A DNA stretch of 58,274 bases from Candidatus Woesebacteria bacterium. GTDB taxonomy: Bacteria; Patescibacteriota; Microgenomatia; UBA1406; GWC2-37-13. Position numbers and translations under genes: made by a program. Positions 3,617 to 52,087 of the stretch are shown here, in pieces. The notes beneath the pieces were generated by a model, which saw nothing but the letters and a program-made list of their open reading frames with translations, searched no databases and had not been told where the DNA came from. The stretch is taken from the NCBI GenBank assembly GCA_020429045.1, contig JAGQLS010000008.1, positions 1 to 58,274 on the forward strand. Direction: 5' to 3'. Positions within the stretch are counted from its first letter, which is position 1; every line of letters begins with the position of its first letter.

Positions 3617-4429
3617 ATGGTCGACACATCTCTACTTGAAGAACAAGCCATCGAGGCAGCACTCAACTCGGATTGGCATAGGGCAGTTACTCTCAATAAA
3701 CAACTTGTCACACAAGACAAAAAGGATTTGCAAGCTTATTTGAGGCTTGGTTACGCTTTGGTTCAACTCTCGGAATTTGACAAAGCAAAAAAAACATACA
3801 AAAAAGTCTTGCGTTTACAGCCCAAACACACATTGGCGACTGAACATCTCAAAAAAATTGCGGTCTTACAGACACAAAAAAAGGCTGCAGCACGCACAAT
3901 CACCTATGATCCTGATACATTTCTTGAGATGCCGGGAAAAACCAAAACCGTACACCTTATGAATGTAGGCCCCAAAGAACATCTTGTTGGTAAGAATAAT
4001 GGCGAAGAAGTCTTACTCAAAGAGAAAAAAAGAAGACTCGAAGTGCGCAGTAGTGACAACGAATATCTCGGCGCAATCCCCGACGACATTTCCAAACGCC
4101 TTCTCTATTTCATAAAAGAAGGTAGCGATTACAAAGCATTCATCAAAGATATTGATTTGACTGACGTCTATATCTTCATCAGAGAAATAAAAAAAGGGAA
4201 TAAAGTTAAACATTACCCCTCATTTCCGTCGGACCCGCACGTTATGCTTACCGACATCCAAAAGGCTGAAAGTGAAGAAGAAAGCGACGATGATTCGGAT
4301 GACGATTCAGACGATGACGACGAAGTTGATATAGAAGATGAACAATGGGGTAACATTGAAGAAAGAGATAGCGATATTGAACGAATCGTTCAATTTGACA
4401 ATAGCGACGATGACGATTCGGATGAATAG
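3617..4429 (+). CDS. TPR protein with long acidic tail
   Basis: The 270-residue protein starts MVDTSLLEEQ and has two TPR-like helical pairs in the first 80 residues (DKKDLQAYLRLGYALVQL and FDKAKKTYKKVLRLQPKH). A middle domain of unknown fold follows. The last 55 residues are dominated by Asp, Glu and Ser, with three DDDS-type repeats. TPRs usually bind partner proteins; acidic tails often bind basic proteins or metals. The start was placed at 3617 because a promoter lies immediately upstream; the longer frame from 3515 would add a spurious hydrophobic leader and read through that promoter. The 3' end overlaps an antisense small gene at 4390. Confidence 0.8.
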   Translation: MVDTSLLEEQAIEAALNSDWHRAVTLNKQLVTQDKKDLQAYLRLGYALVQLSEFDKAKKTYKKVLRLQPKHTLATEHLKKIAVLQTQKKAAARTITYDPDTFLEMPGKTKTVHLMNVGPKEHLVGKNNGEEVLLKEKKRRLEVRSSDNEYLGAIPDDISKRLLYFIKEGSDYKAFIKDIDLTDVYIFIREIKKGNKVKHYPSFPSDPHVMLTDIQKAESEEESDDDSDDDSDDDDEVDIEDEQWGNIEERDSDIERIVQFDNSDDDDSDE

Positions 4430-4581
4430 TGCGTCACTTTATCTTTGAAAAAAACAATACTCCCTCGTATTTTCTGCATATTGAGCATATCAACAATCTC
4501 TTTTGTTGAGTCAAATCCCTTCATTGAGCAAAGAGCGAGAAAAAAGGAAATAAAAAATAAAATGCATAGAATAATGACCAT
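4390..4581 (-). CDS. small single-pass membrane protein
   Basis: The 63-residue frame has one N-terminal membrane segment (about residues 2-17), then a KIRGSIVFFKDKVTHYSS segment and a Ser-rich end. Small proteins of this plan (membrane segment, then a basic strand, then a serine tail) look familiar from CPR genomes, but I cannot name a family. Support for it being real: a TATAAT hexamer (revealed on the minus strand just upstream, about 4590-4595) ends 8 bases before the ATG, matching the leaderless pattern of neighbouring genes. It overlaps the end of the TPR gene in antisense by 40 bases. Confidence 0.5.
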   Translation of the reverse strand: MVIILCILFFISFFLALCSMKGFDSTKEIVDMLNMQKIRGSIVFFKDKVTHYSSESSSSLLSN

Positions 4582-10581: not shown

Positions 10582-10636
10582 AGCGACAAGTCGCTCAGAT
10601 GTTACCAACCCGTACGGACAAGTCGCGACTTGTCCG
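10582..10636. repeat. REP-like palindromic element
   Basis: A perfect 22-bp palindrome built from CGGACAAGTCG and its complement spans 10615-10636. A related hairpin AGCGAC-AA-GTCGCT lies at 10582-10595; both share GACAAGTCGC. Such short GC-rich palindromes in pairs resemble REP-type intergenic elements. It lies between convergent genes and has no T-run. Confidence 0.6.
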
Positions 10637-36202: not shown

Positions 36203-36742
36203 ATGAAAATTGTATATATTGACTCACCATTCAAAAAAAATCCGGTCAACAAATCTGTCATGAAGTATTTGGAAGACGCAAAACACAAGGTCTTTGATGG
36301 TACCTTACCCAAAGAGATTGATGAAGAGATACTTCACTCTGTCAATGCGAAACTGACACGAGAAATAAAAAAATGCGACTGTGTGGTGGTCGAAGCAACG
36401 GAGTCTTCCTTTGATATGGGCCGATTCATCATGTTGGCGCTTTTGCAGCATAAACCGGTCCTTATTTTGCAGGAAAAATCAAAAGCACAATCATATCTTC
36501 TTAGTTCTCATCGTCTGGTTACTGAAAAAAAGTATAAAATGAGTCAATTGGAAAAAGACTTGCAAACAATTCTCGAATCGTTTATTAAGATCGTCAAAAA
36601 ACAACGCCTCACCTATCGCTTTAATCTCATGCTGAGCAAAGACCTCAATATATTCCTCATGGATCAATCTCAAGTGCAAGGAATCAGCAAGGCAGACTAT
36701 ATCCGCAATCTCATTGTGAGCGACATGGAAGAATCGGCCTGA
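36203..36742 (+). CDS. nucleoside deoxyribosyltransferase-like protein with RHH domain
   Basis: The 179-residue protein is a paralogue of the gene at 51509. The N-terminal part has a Rossmann-like deoxyribosyltransferase shape: IKKCDCVVVEAT, then MGRFIMLALLQHKPVLIL. The residue matching the catalytic Glu of the family (E91 of the paralogue) is Phe75 here, so catalysis is doubtful. Residues 135-177 (YRFNLMLSKDLNIFLMDQ, then SKADYIRNLIVSDM) have the strand-helix-helix pattern of a ribbon-helix-helix DNA-binding domain. It is inferred to be a ligand-sensing regulator rather than an enzyme. Confidence 0.62.
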   Translation: MKIVYIDSPFKKNPVNKSVMKYLEDAKHKVFDGTLPKEIDEEILHSVNAKLTREIKKCDCVVVEATESSFDMGRFIMLALLQHKPVLILQEKSKAQSYLLSSHRLVTEKKYKMSQLEKDLQTILESFIKIVKKQRLTYRFNLMLSKDLNIFLMDQSQVQGISKADYIRNLIVSDMEESA

Positions 36743-45891: not shown

Positions 45892-47691
45892 ATGTCTGAT
45901 TTAATTGTTAAAAAATTTGATAATGTAGATAGATACATTTTAGCTGTCATATTATCTTTCTTTTTATCTAATTTTCTCCTTTGGTTTAATACTAATTATA
46001 TACATAGTACCGATCATTACATTCTGTTTTTTTATATCGTTTTTTCTTTATTCTTTGCTTTCAAATTTTTTTGGGGCAAAATATTTATACCTTGCAAATG
46101 TTTCTTTCCCATAATCCTTTTTTCTATTTGCCTGATGTTCTCAAGTAGCTATCTGGTTGAACCAATAATGTCTGGGTCATTAGCCACAATTGGTATTCCT
46201 AATAAAGATCTTCATGATGGTATTATTAGTTATATTCATGACTTCGGTAAGCCCCCAGGAGAAAAAAAGGATTTAACGAATAATTATATACCTAACTCGA
46301 AAAATGGTCTATATTTAGGCTATCCGAACGAATTCCATTCTGTATCTGCACTACTCACATCTTTTAATGTTCATATATTTTACTCAGGTTGGGTAGCCAT
46401 AATAATCGGAATTACAATTTCAAGCTTATCCATTTTTCTTCTTTCAAAATTATTTTTTGATGATTTGACAATTGCTGCAATTAGTGGTGGTTTATTTGCA
46501 ATTTCCTCAATCAGAATTCCACTAGGTGTGGTGACTTCTATTTCTATGTTTTACTCATACACCTTGCTATTGCCCAGTTTTTTACTAATAATATATTTAC
46601 TTAACGATCCACTCCGTACATACACAAATTACATTCTTGCTTCAATTGTCTTTTGTGTAGTACTTGCATCATACTCAGGAACCGTTGTTATCCTCCTATT
46701 GCTATTAACAACATTAATATTTTTTGAAATATTGTTATATCAAAAAAAAGGCTATAAAACCTATCTAATTTTTGTAGCCGTAGTTATTCCATTCTTAATA
46801 ATTACTTTGCTTCCTCAAAAAACTATTTATTGGCAAAATATCTTTCCAACCAGCATCGACTATGATCCATATGAATTATCTCAAAAAATGCTTCCTATTG
46901 ATCAACCAATTTATATGCTGTTTTATTCCCTTTCATTTTTATTGATACTAATCCAAATGATCAAAAAAGTTATAAGTAAAGATAAAATTAATTTTGCAGG
47001 ACCATTTTTTTTATTTATCAATTTAGCTCTTATGTCTTTGTTTTTTTACGATGTTTTATTTAATTATTATCACCAGATTAATAATACTAAAGATTTGATT
47101 TCTATCGATCCGGATGGATTTTTTGGTGGACTAAATCATCAGAAAGTTTCCCGCCTGGCACTTTTCCAACCATTTATATTTGTTTTCTATGTTGGTCTTA
47201 TTGGAGTAATTTTTAAGAATAAAATTTTCAAAATTATTATATTGATAAGTCTTTTTCTATGTTTTTCTCTAGTGAGAATCAACCCTTATGCTTATCCTTG
47301 GATTGAACCGGAAATATACCAATCATATTACAATGAAAAAGATAAAACAAAAATTCTGTCATTATTATCACATCAAAGACTGTTTAAAAATAAGATAATA
47401 TGGAATATAGATAATATCAACGTCTTGAATTTTTTTAAAAAACAAAATTTGCAAAAAAGCAAAATTTTACTTGTAGATCAGCGTAAATGGACTGAAGAAA
47501 CTATTGCAAACTGGGGAAGCGTTTATATAAGACACAAAATCAATTTGGTCGAAGAAGGATCGAAAATAAATGATTATGACTATATTTGGTTTATTAAGTC
47601 AGAGAATAATAATCAAGATATTATTAATCTCAATAATTTTAGTATTACTTACCAATCTGATCAAAATTATGTTTTATTACCTCGATTCTAG
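45892..47691 (+). CDS. multi-pass membrane protein, GT-C-like
   Basis: The 599-residue protein has about eleven membrane segments and a first long outer loop (SGSLATIGIPNKDLHDGIIS, then NSKNGLYLGYPNEFHSVSAL) with acidic residues suited to a GT-C active site. The C-terminal 130 residues are soluble. It is divergent from the 1021-residue protein; the two ATG codons are only 5 bases apart. No promoter could be placed with confidence. Together they may act in one glycan pathway. Confidence 0.6.
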   Translation: MSDLIVKKFDNVDRYILAVILSFFLSNFLLWFNTNYIHSTDHYILFFYIVFSLFFAFKFFWGKIFIPCKCFFPIILFSICLMFSSSYLVEPIMSGSLATIGIPNKDLHDGIISYIHDFGKPPGEKKDLTNNYIPNSKNGLYLGYPNEFHSVSALLTSFNVHIFYSGWVAIIIGITISSLSIFLLSKLFFDDLTIAAISGGLFAISSIRIPLGVVTSISMFYSYTLLLPSFLLIIYLLNDPLRTYTNYILASIVFCVVLASYSGTVVILLLLLTTLIFFEILLYQKKGYKTYLIFVAVVIPFLIITLLPQKTIYWQNIFPTSIDYDPYELSQKMLPIDQPIYMLFYSLSFLLILIQMIKKVISKDKINFAGPFFLFINLALMSLFFYDVLFNYYHQINNTKDLISIDPDGFFGGLNHQKVSRLALFQPFIFVFYVGLIGVIFKNKIFKIIILISLFLCFSLVRINPYAYPWIEPEIYQSYYNEKDKTKILSLLSHQRLFKNKIIWNIDNINVLNFFKKQNLQKSKILLVDQRKWTEETIANWGSVYIRHKINLVEEGSKINDYDYIWFIKSENNNQDIINLNNFSITYQSDQNYVLLPRF

Positions 47692-49190
47692 ATCGCTGTA
47701 CAGGCCATAATACTTGCACGAATCCTTTCAACAAAAAGTTCATGAGCTACTGTTCCATAAAAATGGTAATACCATGAAAGTTCATCAAGAAATTCGAGCA
47801 TATCAACATACTCAAACTCATTGGTTTCGTCGTTCCACAACTGTACTTGAACGGTTCCATCTTGCACATTGGGATCATTTTCAATTGCGAGTCTTACTCC
47901 ATTTATAGCTTCACTTCGACCTTTTTTTTGGGAAGAAGGATATACAGGATCATTATCAGCATCCGGGGTAGGAGGACAATCTCCAGGTACTATTCTAATA
48001 ACCGCTTGTTCTACTTCTTCTAACATTGCCTCTCCGTATCCAAATCGGAGTATATTAGGGTTTTTAGGATTACCGCCACCAGTCCAGCCAGAAGCATATA
48101 CGCCATAGGCATCGGAACGATTGTTTAAGGCTCCAATATTAATATCTTGCCACTGTGGAGCTTGACTAAAGTCATATATTTCATCTGGTGAAAAAAGAGC
48201 GTTTCCATTAGCATCACGATGAAATCCGTCTTGATATACTACTCCAGGTTTAAGAGGAAAGGCTTCGAAAACAAATGTGGTTCCATCCCAGGCCCAGGCG
48301 CCATCTGGTCCCATGTATGTATCCCTTCGCCAATTCTGAGCAGCGCCACCTACTATAGCAGCTATATCATCTGGACTGACTGGGTATTCTGAGGGACTTT
48401 TTGCAGCTAATATAGAAATTTCATTTTTAGATTGAGGATCAACATACTCAAACTCATTGGTTTCGTCGTTCCACAACTGTACTTGAACGGTTCCATCTTG
48501 CACATTGGGATCATTTTCAATTGCGAGTCTTACTCCATTTATAGCTTCACTTCGACCTTTTTTTTGGGAAGAAGGATATACAGGATCATTATCAGCATCC
48601 GGGGTAGGAGGACAATCTCCAGGTACTATTCTAATAACCGCTTGTTCTACTTCTTCTAACATTGCCTCTCCGTATCCAAATCGGAGTATATTAGGGTTTT
48701 TAGGATTACCGCCACCAGTCCAGCCAGAAGCATATACGCCATAGGCATCGGAACGATTGTTTAAGGCTCCAATATTAATATCTTGCCACTGTGGAGCTTG
48801 ACTAAAGTCATATATTTCATCTGGTGAAAAAAGAGCGTTTCCATTAGCATCACGATGAAATCCGTCTTGATATACTACTCCAGGTTTAAGAGGAAAGGCT
48901 TCGAAAACAAATGTGGTTCCATCCCAGGCCCAGGCGCCATCTGGTCCCATGTATGTATCCCTTCGCCAATTCTGAGCAGCGCCACCTACTATAGCAGCTA
49001 TATCATCTGGACTGACTGGGTATTCTGAGGGAATACTATTTTTTGAATCTATATTTAAGAGATTAAAGCCACGATCAGTTGTTAAAGCTTGTTCACTATT
49101 GGTAGAAGATTTACAGCCTATCGCATTTATCGAACCTGCCAAAAGCCCAACCGAGGTAAAAATTCTAATAACAGTTTCTGTTCTACTCAT
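47688..49190 (-). CDS. predicted lipoprotein with exactly duplicated domain
   Basis: The 500-residue protein has a signal sequence ending AIGC (Cys at about residue 26), a plausible lipobox. The body is two copies of an approximately 200-residue domain (SEYPVSPDDIAAIVGGAAQN ... WNDETNEFEYVD) that are identical in amino acids, separated by a 13-residue linker, then a 45-residue tail ending SIMACTAI. The domain includes WAWDGTTFVFEAFPLKPG and DAYGVYASGWTGGGNPKNP and is not recognised. The underlying 595-bp DNA repeats appear identical. The stop overlaps the end of the convergent membrane protein gene by 4 bases. Confidence 0.78.
   Translation of the reverse strand: MSRTETVIRIFTSVGLLAGSINAIGCKSSTNSEQALTTDRGFNLLNIDSKNSIPSEYPVSPDDIAAIVGGAAQNWRRDTYMGPDGAWAWDGTTFVFEAFPLKPGVVYQDGFHRDANGNALFSPDEIYDFSQAPQWQDINIGALNNRSDAYGVYASGWTGGGNPKNPNILRFGYGEAMLEEVEQAVIRIVPGDCPPTPDADNDPVYPSSQKKGRSEAINGVRLAIENDPNVQDGTVQVQLWNDETNEFEYVDPQSKNEISILAAKSPSEYPVSPDDIAAIVGGAAQNWRRDTYMGPDGAWAWDGTTFVFEAFPLKPGVVYQDGFHRDANGNALFSPDEIYDFSQAPQWQDINIGALNNRSDAYGVYASGWTGGGNPKNPNILRFGYGEAMLEEVEQAVIRIVPGDCPPTPDADNDPVYPSSQKKGRSEAINGVRLAIENDPNVQDGTVQVQLWNDETNEFEYVDMLEFLDELSWYYHFYGTVAHELFVERIRASIMACTAI
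47802..48396. repeat. 595-bp direct repeat, copy 1
   Basis: This copy matches 48438-49032 base for base wherever compared, with a 636-bp period. The boundaries are sharp: flanking bases differ at once. It lies in the lipoprotein gene and keeps its frame. Confidence 0.88.
48438..49032. repeat. 595-bp direct repeat, copy 2
   Basis: Second copy of the repeat at 47802-48396, separated from it by a unique 41-base spacer. Perfect identity suggests a very recent duplication or gene conversion. Confidence 0.88.
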
Positions 49191-50991: not shown

Positions 50992-51402
50992 TTACATTTC
51001 TTCGCTTTCTCTTTTTTTCATGAAATAATCGCTTAGTTGTGAGAGCCTTTTTTGTGTTGCTTCTTTTTCCTTTGACAAACGGCCGAGTACTTCTTTCACT
51101 AGAGCCATGTAGTCATCTTTATCCATGTCTTCCATGGTTTCTCTGATCTCTTTCATCTTTGCGCCGAATTCTTTTTGTGCTTTCTCAAGGAGCACTTTGC
51201 CCTCTTCAGAAGCCATACCATAGACTTCTTCTGCGATCTGCTCGATGTCTTTGTCTTTGGTGAAATCGCGCACTTCTTCTAGTTTTCCTTTTACCCACTC
51301 TCTGTTCTCTTCCCCTGATCCTGGAGAAAGAAATAATGCCGTAATACTACCGATGACTGCGCCAAGTGCCAGCCCGAGTCCGAATTTGGATTTTTTTCCC
51401 AT
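50992..51402 (-). CDS. YtxH-family protein
   Basis: The 136-residue protein starts MGKKSKFGLGLALGAVIGSI and has the YtxH glycine-rich membrane segment ending LFLSPGSGEENREWVKGKL, then a long charged helix. YtxH proteins are small stress-linked envelope proteins in Bacillus. The internal ATG (51402) is chosen because it begins at the conserved segment; the longer frame from 51459 reads through a possible promoter. It diverges from the gene at 51509. Confidence 0.8.
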   Translation of the reverse strand: MGKKSKFGLGLALGAVIGSITALFLSPGSGEENREWVKGKLEEVRDFTKDKDIEQIAEEVYGMASEEGKVLLEKAQKEFGAKMKEIRETMEDMDKDDYMALVKEVLGRLSKEKEATQKRLSQLSDYFMKKRESEEM

Positions 51403-51474
51403 GTTTGCGTTTTTAAATTGTAATACGTTATTGTAGCATGAATATTTCTCAAGAATCAATAGAGGAAAATCCCC

Positions 51475-51502
51475 TTCACATATAGCATTCGAATGCTATA
51501 AT
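51475..51502 (+). promoter_or_regulatory. promoter overlapped by 20-bp palindrome
   Basis: TTCACA (51475-51480), 16 bases, TATAAT (51497-51502), then 6 bases to the ATG at 51509. A perfect palindrome of half-site TATAGCATTC spans 51481-51500, covering the spacer and the -10. A protein bound there would block RNA polymerase. Confidence 0.72.
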
Positions 51503-51508
51503 TTCACT

Positions 51509-52087
51509 ATGAAACGGAAAGGGCTCAAACTCTATTTCACTGGTTCTATTGCAGCAAGGGATAAGTACCTTGACCAGTATAAAAAAATCGTTGCCTATGC
51601 CAAAGATGGCGGGAAAAATGAAGTAATCGCGGACCACATGTTTAAGGTCTCAGAAAAAGAGATAAATATGTCTACGCGAAAAGAACGATTAGCCTTCCAC
51701 GCCAAACTTGAACGTTGGATACATTCGTGTGATGGTATAATTGCCGAAACCTCGTTCCCAAGCATCAGTGTAGGGTATGAAATTTCTCTTGCTCTTAAGG
51801 TCGGCAAACCAGTGCTGATCCTCTATAGCGAGGGAGGACCACCCTCACTTCTTGCTCATCACAAAGATGAAAAATTGTTGTGTGAAAAATACTCATCAGA
51901 TACGCTTAAACGTCTTGTTTCTGAGTTTCTCGAATATATTCAAAGTAGTTCCGATCTTCGGTTTACTTTCTTTATCACCCCAAAAATCTCTTCGTATCTC
52001 AATACGGTGGCGAAAAAAGATAAACTTCCAAAGTCGGTCTACCTCCGAAAGCTCATTGAGAATGATATGAAGGAACGAATGGAATAA
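51509..52087 (+). CDS. nucleoside deoxyribosyltransferase-like protein with RHH domain
   Basis: The 192-residue protein has a Rossmann-like N-terminal domain with the deoxyribosyltransferase pattern: LKLYFTGSIA, D75 in IHSCDGIIAET, and E91 in SVGYEISLAL followed by GKPVLILY. E91 fits the catalytic nucleophile. The C-terminal 43 residues (RFTFFITPKISSYLNTVAKK then LPKSVYLRKLIENDM) match a ribbon-helix-helix DNA-binding domain. Its paralogue is at 36203. A 20-bp palindrome overlaps its own promoter, so it may be an autorepressor that senses a nucleoside. This role is inferred. Confidence 0.68.
   Translation: MKRKGLKLYFTGSIAARDKYLDQYKKIVAYAKDGGKNEVIADHMFKVSEKEINMSTRKERLAFHAKLERWIHSCDGIIAETSFPSISVGYEISLALKVGKPVLILYSEGGPPSLLAHHKDEKLLCEKYSSDTLKRLVSEFLEYIQSSSDLRFTFFITPKISSYLNTVAKKDKLPKSVYLRKLIENDMKERME

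Follow-up and report, generated by a model that had tools for sequence, protein, structure and literature searches.

Does a perfect palindrome that lies over a promoter serve as the operator of the protein encoded behind that promoter? This question is raised by a gene in a 58,274-nt stretch of DNA (hereafter, the window) from a Candidatus Woesebacteria bacterium (GenBank assembly GCA_020429045.1, contig JAGQLS010000008.1). The gene product joins a domain resembling DNPH1/Rcl, a member of the deoxyribosyltransferase (NDT) superfamily, to a ribbon-helix-helix (RHH) domain. The features of the locus are listed in Table 1.

Table 1. Features of the window gene, its promoter region and related genes in the window
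Feature	Position	Strand	Basis
-35-like hexamer TTCACA	51475..51480	+	Consensus scan, paired with the -10 hexamer
Candidate operator, perfect 20-bp palindrome TATAGCATTCGAATGCTATA	51481..51500		Sequence
-10 hexamer TATAAT with extended TG (TGCTATAAT)	51497..51502	+	Consensus scan
Window gene, NDT/DNPH1-like and RHH protein, 192 aa	51509..52087	+	Translation, domain search, homologues
DNPH1/Rcl-like domain, residues 3-147	51515..51949	+	PDB profile search, structural match, alignments
RHH domain, residues 151-191 (strand RFTFFI, helices 158-171 and 175-191)	51959..52081	+	Pfam, structure prediction, PDB matches
Divergent YtxH-like gene, candidate second target	50992..51402	-	Pfam YtxH
Promoter-like site of the divergent gene, TTGATT-18-TACAAT	51430..51459	-	Consensus scan
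Distant paralogue, catalytic Glu lost, RHH-like C-terminus	36203..36739	+	Alignment

The palindrome reported in the initial annotation matches the sequence exactly, and its position over the -10 element and spacer of a leaderless promoter was confirmed by the consensus scan. It takes up the whole spacer, reaches four bases into the -10 hexamer (TTCACA-16-TATAAT) and is flush against the -35-like hexamer. The promoter agrees with the consensus at 11 of 12 bases and has a 16-nt spacer. Because the ATG lies 7 nt past the -10 hexamer, the mRNA is plausibly leaderless. Across 632 kb of the window's genome, the occurrence of TATAAT before ORF starts peaks 11-15 nt ahead of the ATG, so that leaderless promoters look usual in this genome; a -10 hexamer (TATAAT) in the leaderless position is also present in most promoters of the group A homologues.

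Chance rates for palindromes were computed on the same 632 kb. Four perfect palindromes of at least 20 bp were found (0.9 expected from base composition); two lie inside reading frames, and the one described here is the only one that adjoins a gene start. Among about 728 upstream regions of 60 nt, it is the second strongest inverted repeat. A repeat of equal strength was found in one of the 727 other regions, a DnaA-box-like pair before a comF-like reading frame (L050, around position 312; inverted pair TTGTGGATAACTTATCCACAA), which is possibly near a replication origin. None of 100 shuffles of the window gene's upstream region reached the score of the palindrome, nor did any of 3000 mononucleotide shuffles of the upstream 60 nt. 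From the palindrome and upstream-region counts, we estimate that ~0.1 such promoter palindromes are expected by chance per genome. Noise is an unlikely explanation, with the caveat that the palindrome was picked after it had been seen.

With up to three mismatches allowed, neither the window nor the rest of the genome yielded a second copy of the palindrome. The sequence does not by itself reveal which protein binds it, and with a single genomic copy it could be the operator of another regulator in the genome. We regard this as very improbable: a site that occurs once, beside the gene of an RHH protein, speaks for local autoregulation. The palindrome was not found to belong to a tRNA or to any known RNA family. 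Matches with three mismatches occur in five other genomes of the family, and in two cases the locus has tRNA-Gln genes at or next to the match; the TTCGAATCC-type matches look like tRNA T-arms. The window holds another perfect palindrome, CGGACAAGTCGCGACTTGTCCG (22 bp, 10615-10636), which lies outside long reading frames, with the related GCGACAAGTCGC ~30 bp upstream.

We then turn to the protein. Its Pfam PF05014 score falls just short of the gathering cut-off (28.3 against 28.8 bits, E 2e-6), and all nine aligned family members match this profile (best E 2e-8). When a profile of nine homologues was compared with solved structures, DNPH1/Rcl was the only match below E 1e-10 (E 4.5e-15). In an AlphaFold2 model (mean pLDDT 77), residues 5-146 match rat DNPH1 with a VIA-align Z of 18.2 and an rmsd of 2.6 Å over 137 residues. 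The initial annotation had called the domain deoxyribosyltransferase-like; membership of the NDT superfamily stands, but by profile and structure the domain resembles DNPH1/Rcl, with the fold of a nucleoside 5'-monophosphate N-hydrolase, rather than a transferase. The window protein had no match above the cut-off in defence-system or curated NCBI families, and its weak Pfam matches (e.g. to glycosyl transferase) were set aside as below the cut-off.

Relatives of the domain occur in other fusions. In the same bacterial family, proteins of ~375 aa join the same NDT-like domain to a thymidylate kinase domain (L042:1095-2270 on the minus strand, also L043, L044 and L045; Pfam Thymidylate_kin E 6e-16 in L042), which ties the NDT-like domain to nucleotide salvage. 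Two further relatives on the minus strand are fused to a PfkB-family kinase (L147:520-1941; E 3e-57) and to a methyltransferase (L149:544-1914).

The assignment of the C-terminus to the RHH class, also proposed in the initial annotation, agrees with both sequence profiles and fold prediction. Pfam RHH_3 gives E 0.007 for the window protein alone and matches nine of nine full-length aligned members (best E 1.8e-4); with C-terminal segments alone, RHH_3 was matched in 13 of 18, and RHH_1 reached 4e-6. Modelled separately (pLDDT 88), the C-terminus forms two helices; the RHH strand is not formed in monomer models. Nearly all of the matches listed for it by Foldseek and VIA-align belong to the RHH class (CopG, Arc, PutA, NikR, CdbA and antitoxins), with VIA-align Z-scores of 7.2 for PutA, 6.6 for CopG and for Arc, and 6.4 for NikR. 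Foldseek E-values above 0.1 and Z-scores near 7 are modest, as expected for 47 residues, and the fold assignment relies on the consistency of the structural match list and on the agreeing sequence profiles.

The initial annotation knew of no described regulator that combines an NDT-like with an RHH domain, and we likewise found no description of it in the open-licence literature, where the one paper that contains both terms mentions each a single time and deals with Bacillus phages; a search of this literature with the group name returned nothing relevant on NDT-RHH proteins. The protein family itself is real and widespread, and a wider search turned up RHH-fused homologues across Patescibacteria, but the palindrome is unique to the window's genome. 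Counts of distribution refer to the sampled genomes, many of which are incomplete assemblies.

Is the DNPH1-like domain an enzyme or a sensor? DNPH1 catalysis employs the triad Y24, D80 and E104, in addition to E55, H56, S98 and R30 (PMC10603095; PMC12751057). By alignment, Y24, D80, E104, E55, H56, S98 and R30 correspond to Y9, L67, E91, D42, H43, S85 and A15 of the window protein. The triad is thus incomplete, with Tyr and Glu kept and the general-acid Asp replaced by Leu. At the D80 column of the MAFFT alignments from which columns were assigned, none of the 78 RHH-fused copies examined from across Patescibacteria (related sequences, not 78 independent events) has Asp or Glu, whereas Asp is present in seven of seven stand-alone Patescibacteria copies and in rat Rcl. 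Within group A, S85 is found in all copies and E91 in nearly all, but the general-acid Asp is replaced by Leu or Ile and the Arg equivalent to R30 is also replaced; in the group B paralogues, the nucleophile Glu is lost in addition.

As in PutA, the window protein could still be an active enzyme to which a DNA-binding tail is attached, cleaving or transferring nucleotides and exerting RHH feedback on its own promoter. The nucleophile Glu is retained in 53 of the 78 RHH-fused copies, Y9, D42, H43 and S85 are kept in the window protein, and nucleoside diphosphate kinase genes lie near three of the loci (L008, L023 and L025). The replacement of the general acid and of the R30 equivalent in group A, and the complete loss of Glu in group B, argue against this reading, which we consider improbable. 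A weakened or altered enzyme, instead of a pure sensor, would be a less simple reading. The loss of the catalytic Asp in RHH-fused copies favours a sensor, and the simplest reading is that the RHH-fused domain derives from an enzyme and now probably serves as a sensor.

The initial annotation had expected the palindrome to be kept upstream of orthologues, and this expectation was not borne out. Homologues of the window protein at 45-69 % identity were found in Roizmanbacteria and Gottesmanbacteria. The palindrome was absent from all 17 promoters of group A homologues, among them those of four positional orthologues that share the divergent neighbour. Scanning 72 family genomes revealed no copy at homologue promoters. 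Compared with other TATAAT promoters, those of group A showed no excess of inverted repeats (p 0.34). No shared non-promoter word or dyad upstream of groups A and B held up under multiple testing. The RHH strand, by contrast, is nearly identical among group A homologues.

The protein may therefore be a regulator that acts at other sites, with the palindrome as an accidental or recent sequence rather than its operator. The lack of conservation in any homologue fits this explanation, as do the numbers of perfect palindromes in the genome and inside reading frames given above. On the other hand, the palindrome fits the promoter spacer exactly and is rare among upstream regions, and operators of related regulators can drift fast, as seen for NrtR (PMC6800001). 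Taking both sides into account, we judge this explanation unlikely, though it has the most in its favour after autorepression at the palindrome. Since even the nearest homologue has no more than 69 % identity and a single species represents the window's genus in the genomes sampled, the palindrome may be an operator that arose recently in this lineage, and we consider such a role plausible.

The divergent neighbour is a second potential target. A similar divergent ORF lies upstream in the closest homologues (L004, L005, L007 and L015), with a Pfam YtxH match in the window and in L004, and the intergenic regions of the window and these homologues therefore correspond. Both the promoter-like site of the divergent gene and the palindrome contain ATTC(GA)ATGCTAYAAT. 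This common motif of the two divergent promoters was suggestive by eye but was rejected as not significant (61 of 300 shuffles). Besides the paralogue in Table 1, further copies in close proximity were observed on a Gottesmanbacteria contig, where a stretch of 4 kb holds three homologues of the window protein (L009:798-1355, 1684-2217 and 4001-4561, plus strand) and the middle one has a degenerate active site. On the minus strand of the window, a 500-aa reading frame (47688-49190) carries an apparently exact duplication of ~190 residues (SEYPVSPDDIAAIVGG...), which either is a genuine tandem duplication or arose as an artefact of the assembly.

A conserved site was found in a sister subfamily, termed C, which comprises 18 loci from several families and more than one class. 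A ATATGTATA-like AT-rich site with at most one mismatch covers the start of the own gene in 16 of 18 loci (shuffle p 4e-5). In 12 of the 18, a second such site lies 50-97 bp upstream, close to the divergent gene (p 2e-6). The subfamily C site had been noticed before testing and its p-values are descriptive. Mean identity was 0.51 at the proximal site compared with 0.32 in the unconserved background between the sites. The exact octamer TATGTATA was present in 14 of the 18 upstream regions but only in 14 of 722 in the window's genome (p 8e-19); in the genes flanking the subfamily C loci it was found in 16 of 110, though some of these probably coincide with the intergenic regions already counted. 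Upstream, the usual neighbour is a glyoxalase-like gene in divergent orientation, replaced at some loci by an EamA transporter gene; the Pfam searches covered two glyoxalase-like genes and one EamA gene.

Local regulators that also control their own gene usually have one site close to each of two divergent starts. The two-site arrangement of subfamily C has this layout and appears operator-like; it is the best evidence for a regulator role, albeit from another subfamily than that of the window gene. Given that the palindrome is not conserved in orthologues, autorepression through it rests on its geometry and on the analogous site in the sister subfamily. On these grounds we find such autorepression plausible, with the chances about evenly divided.

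The window protein shares with DNPH1/Rcl (2'-deoxynucleoside 5'-phosphate N-hydrolase) the fold, the Tyr, the phosphate-binding Ser, the nucleophile Glu and the His, and differs from it by Leu at D80, Ala at R30 and the added RHH domain. An RHH DNA-binding unit coupled to a metabolite is also found in PutA, NikR and CdbA. The ligand part of PutA is a proline dehydrogenase and that of NikR an ACT-like nickel domain. CdbA binds c-di-GMP (PMC7156744) and has its ligand site on the RHH surface itself; in none of the three is the ligand part NDT-like. The closest analogue in mechanism to what we propose is NrtR, a Nudix-derived autorepressor that has lost catalysis and leaves DNA on binding ADP-ribose, with palindromes that differ between lineages (PMC6800001). 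Both join a nucleotide-hydrolase fold to a DNA-binding domain, with catalysis lost in NrtR and probably lost in the window protein, and NrtR represses its own gene, has neighbouring targets and recognizes a lineage-varying palindrome. NrtR, however, has a Nudix fold and ADP-ribose as ligand (MsNrtR, PMC6800001), whereas the window protein has a DNPH1-like fold and an RHH tip.

Taken together, we read the window gene as most likely a member of a one-component regulator family, comparable to NrtR, whose operators change quickly. That it is itself such a regulator, with an Asp-less DNPH1-like nucleotide sensor and an RHH domain and with autorepression at the palindrome, we hold to be slightly more probable than its negation. 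We infer DNA binding, dimerization, the identity of the ligand, the direction of control and the palindrome as the binding site, and the mechanism would run as follows. Lacking the general-acid Asp, the DNPH1-like domain would bind a nucleotide, most likely a nucleoside 5'-monophosphate, with no efficient turnover. A dimer would contact operators through the RHH domain, and in the window's genome the likely operator would be the palindrome. Occupation of this site by RHH dimers would block RNA polymerase at the -35 and -10 elements and so repress transcription of the gene that encodes them. Ligand binding would alter the grip of the RHH dimers on DNA, and repression would end.

A broader proposal, which we put forward tentatively and with a little less than even confidence, is that such proteins act as regulators throughout the phylum Patescibacteria. 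A disabled DNPH1-like nucleotide sensor joined to an RHH domain would use clade-specific operators, and the gene and its divergent neighbour would be switched by the (salvaged) nucleotide pool.

Patescibacteria have tiny genomes and few described regulators, and they are held to depend on nucleotides from other cells. The Asp that is kept in stand-alone copies and lost in RHH-fused ones, together with the subfamily C site, makes the idea open to in vitro testing. If it is true, the DNPH1-like domain would be a new sensor fold in the RHH class, and these proteins would offer a direct handle on how Patescibacteria sense nucleotide supply.
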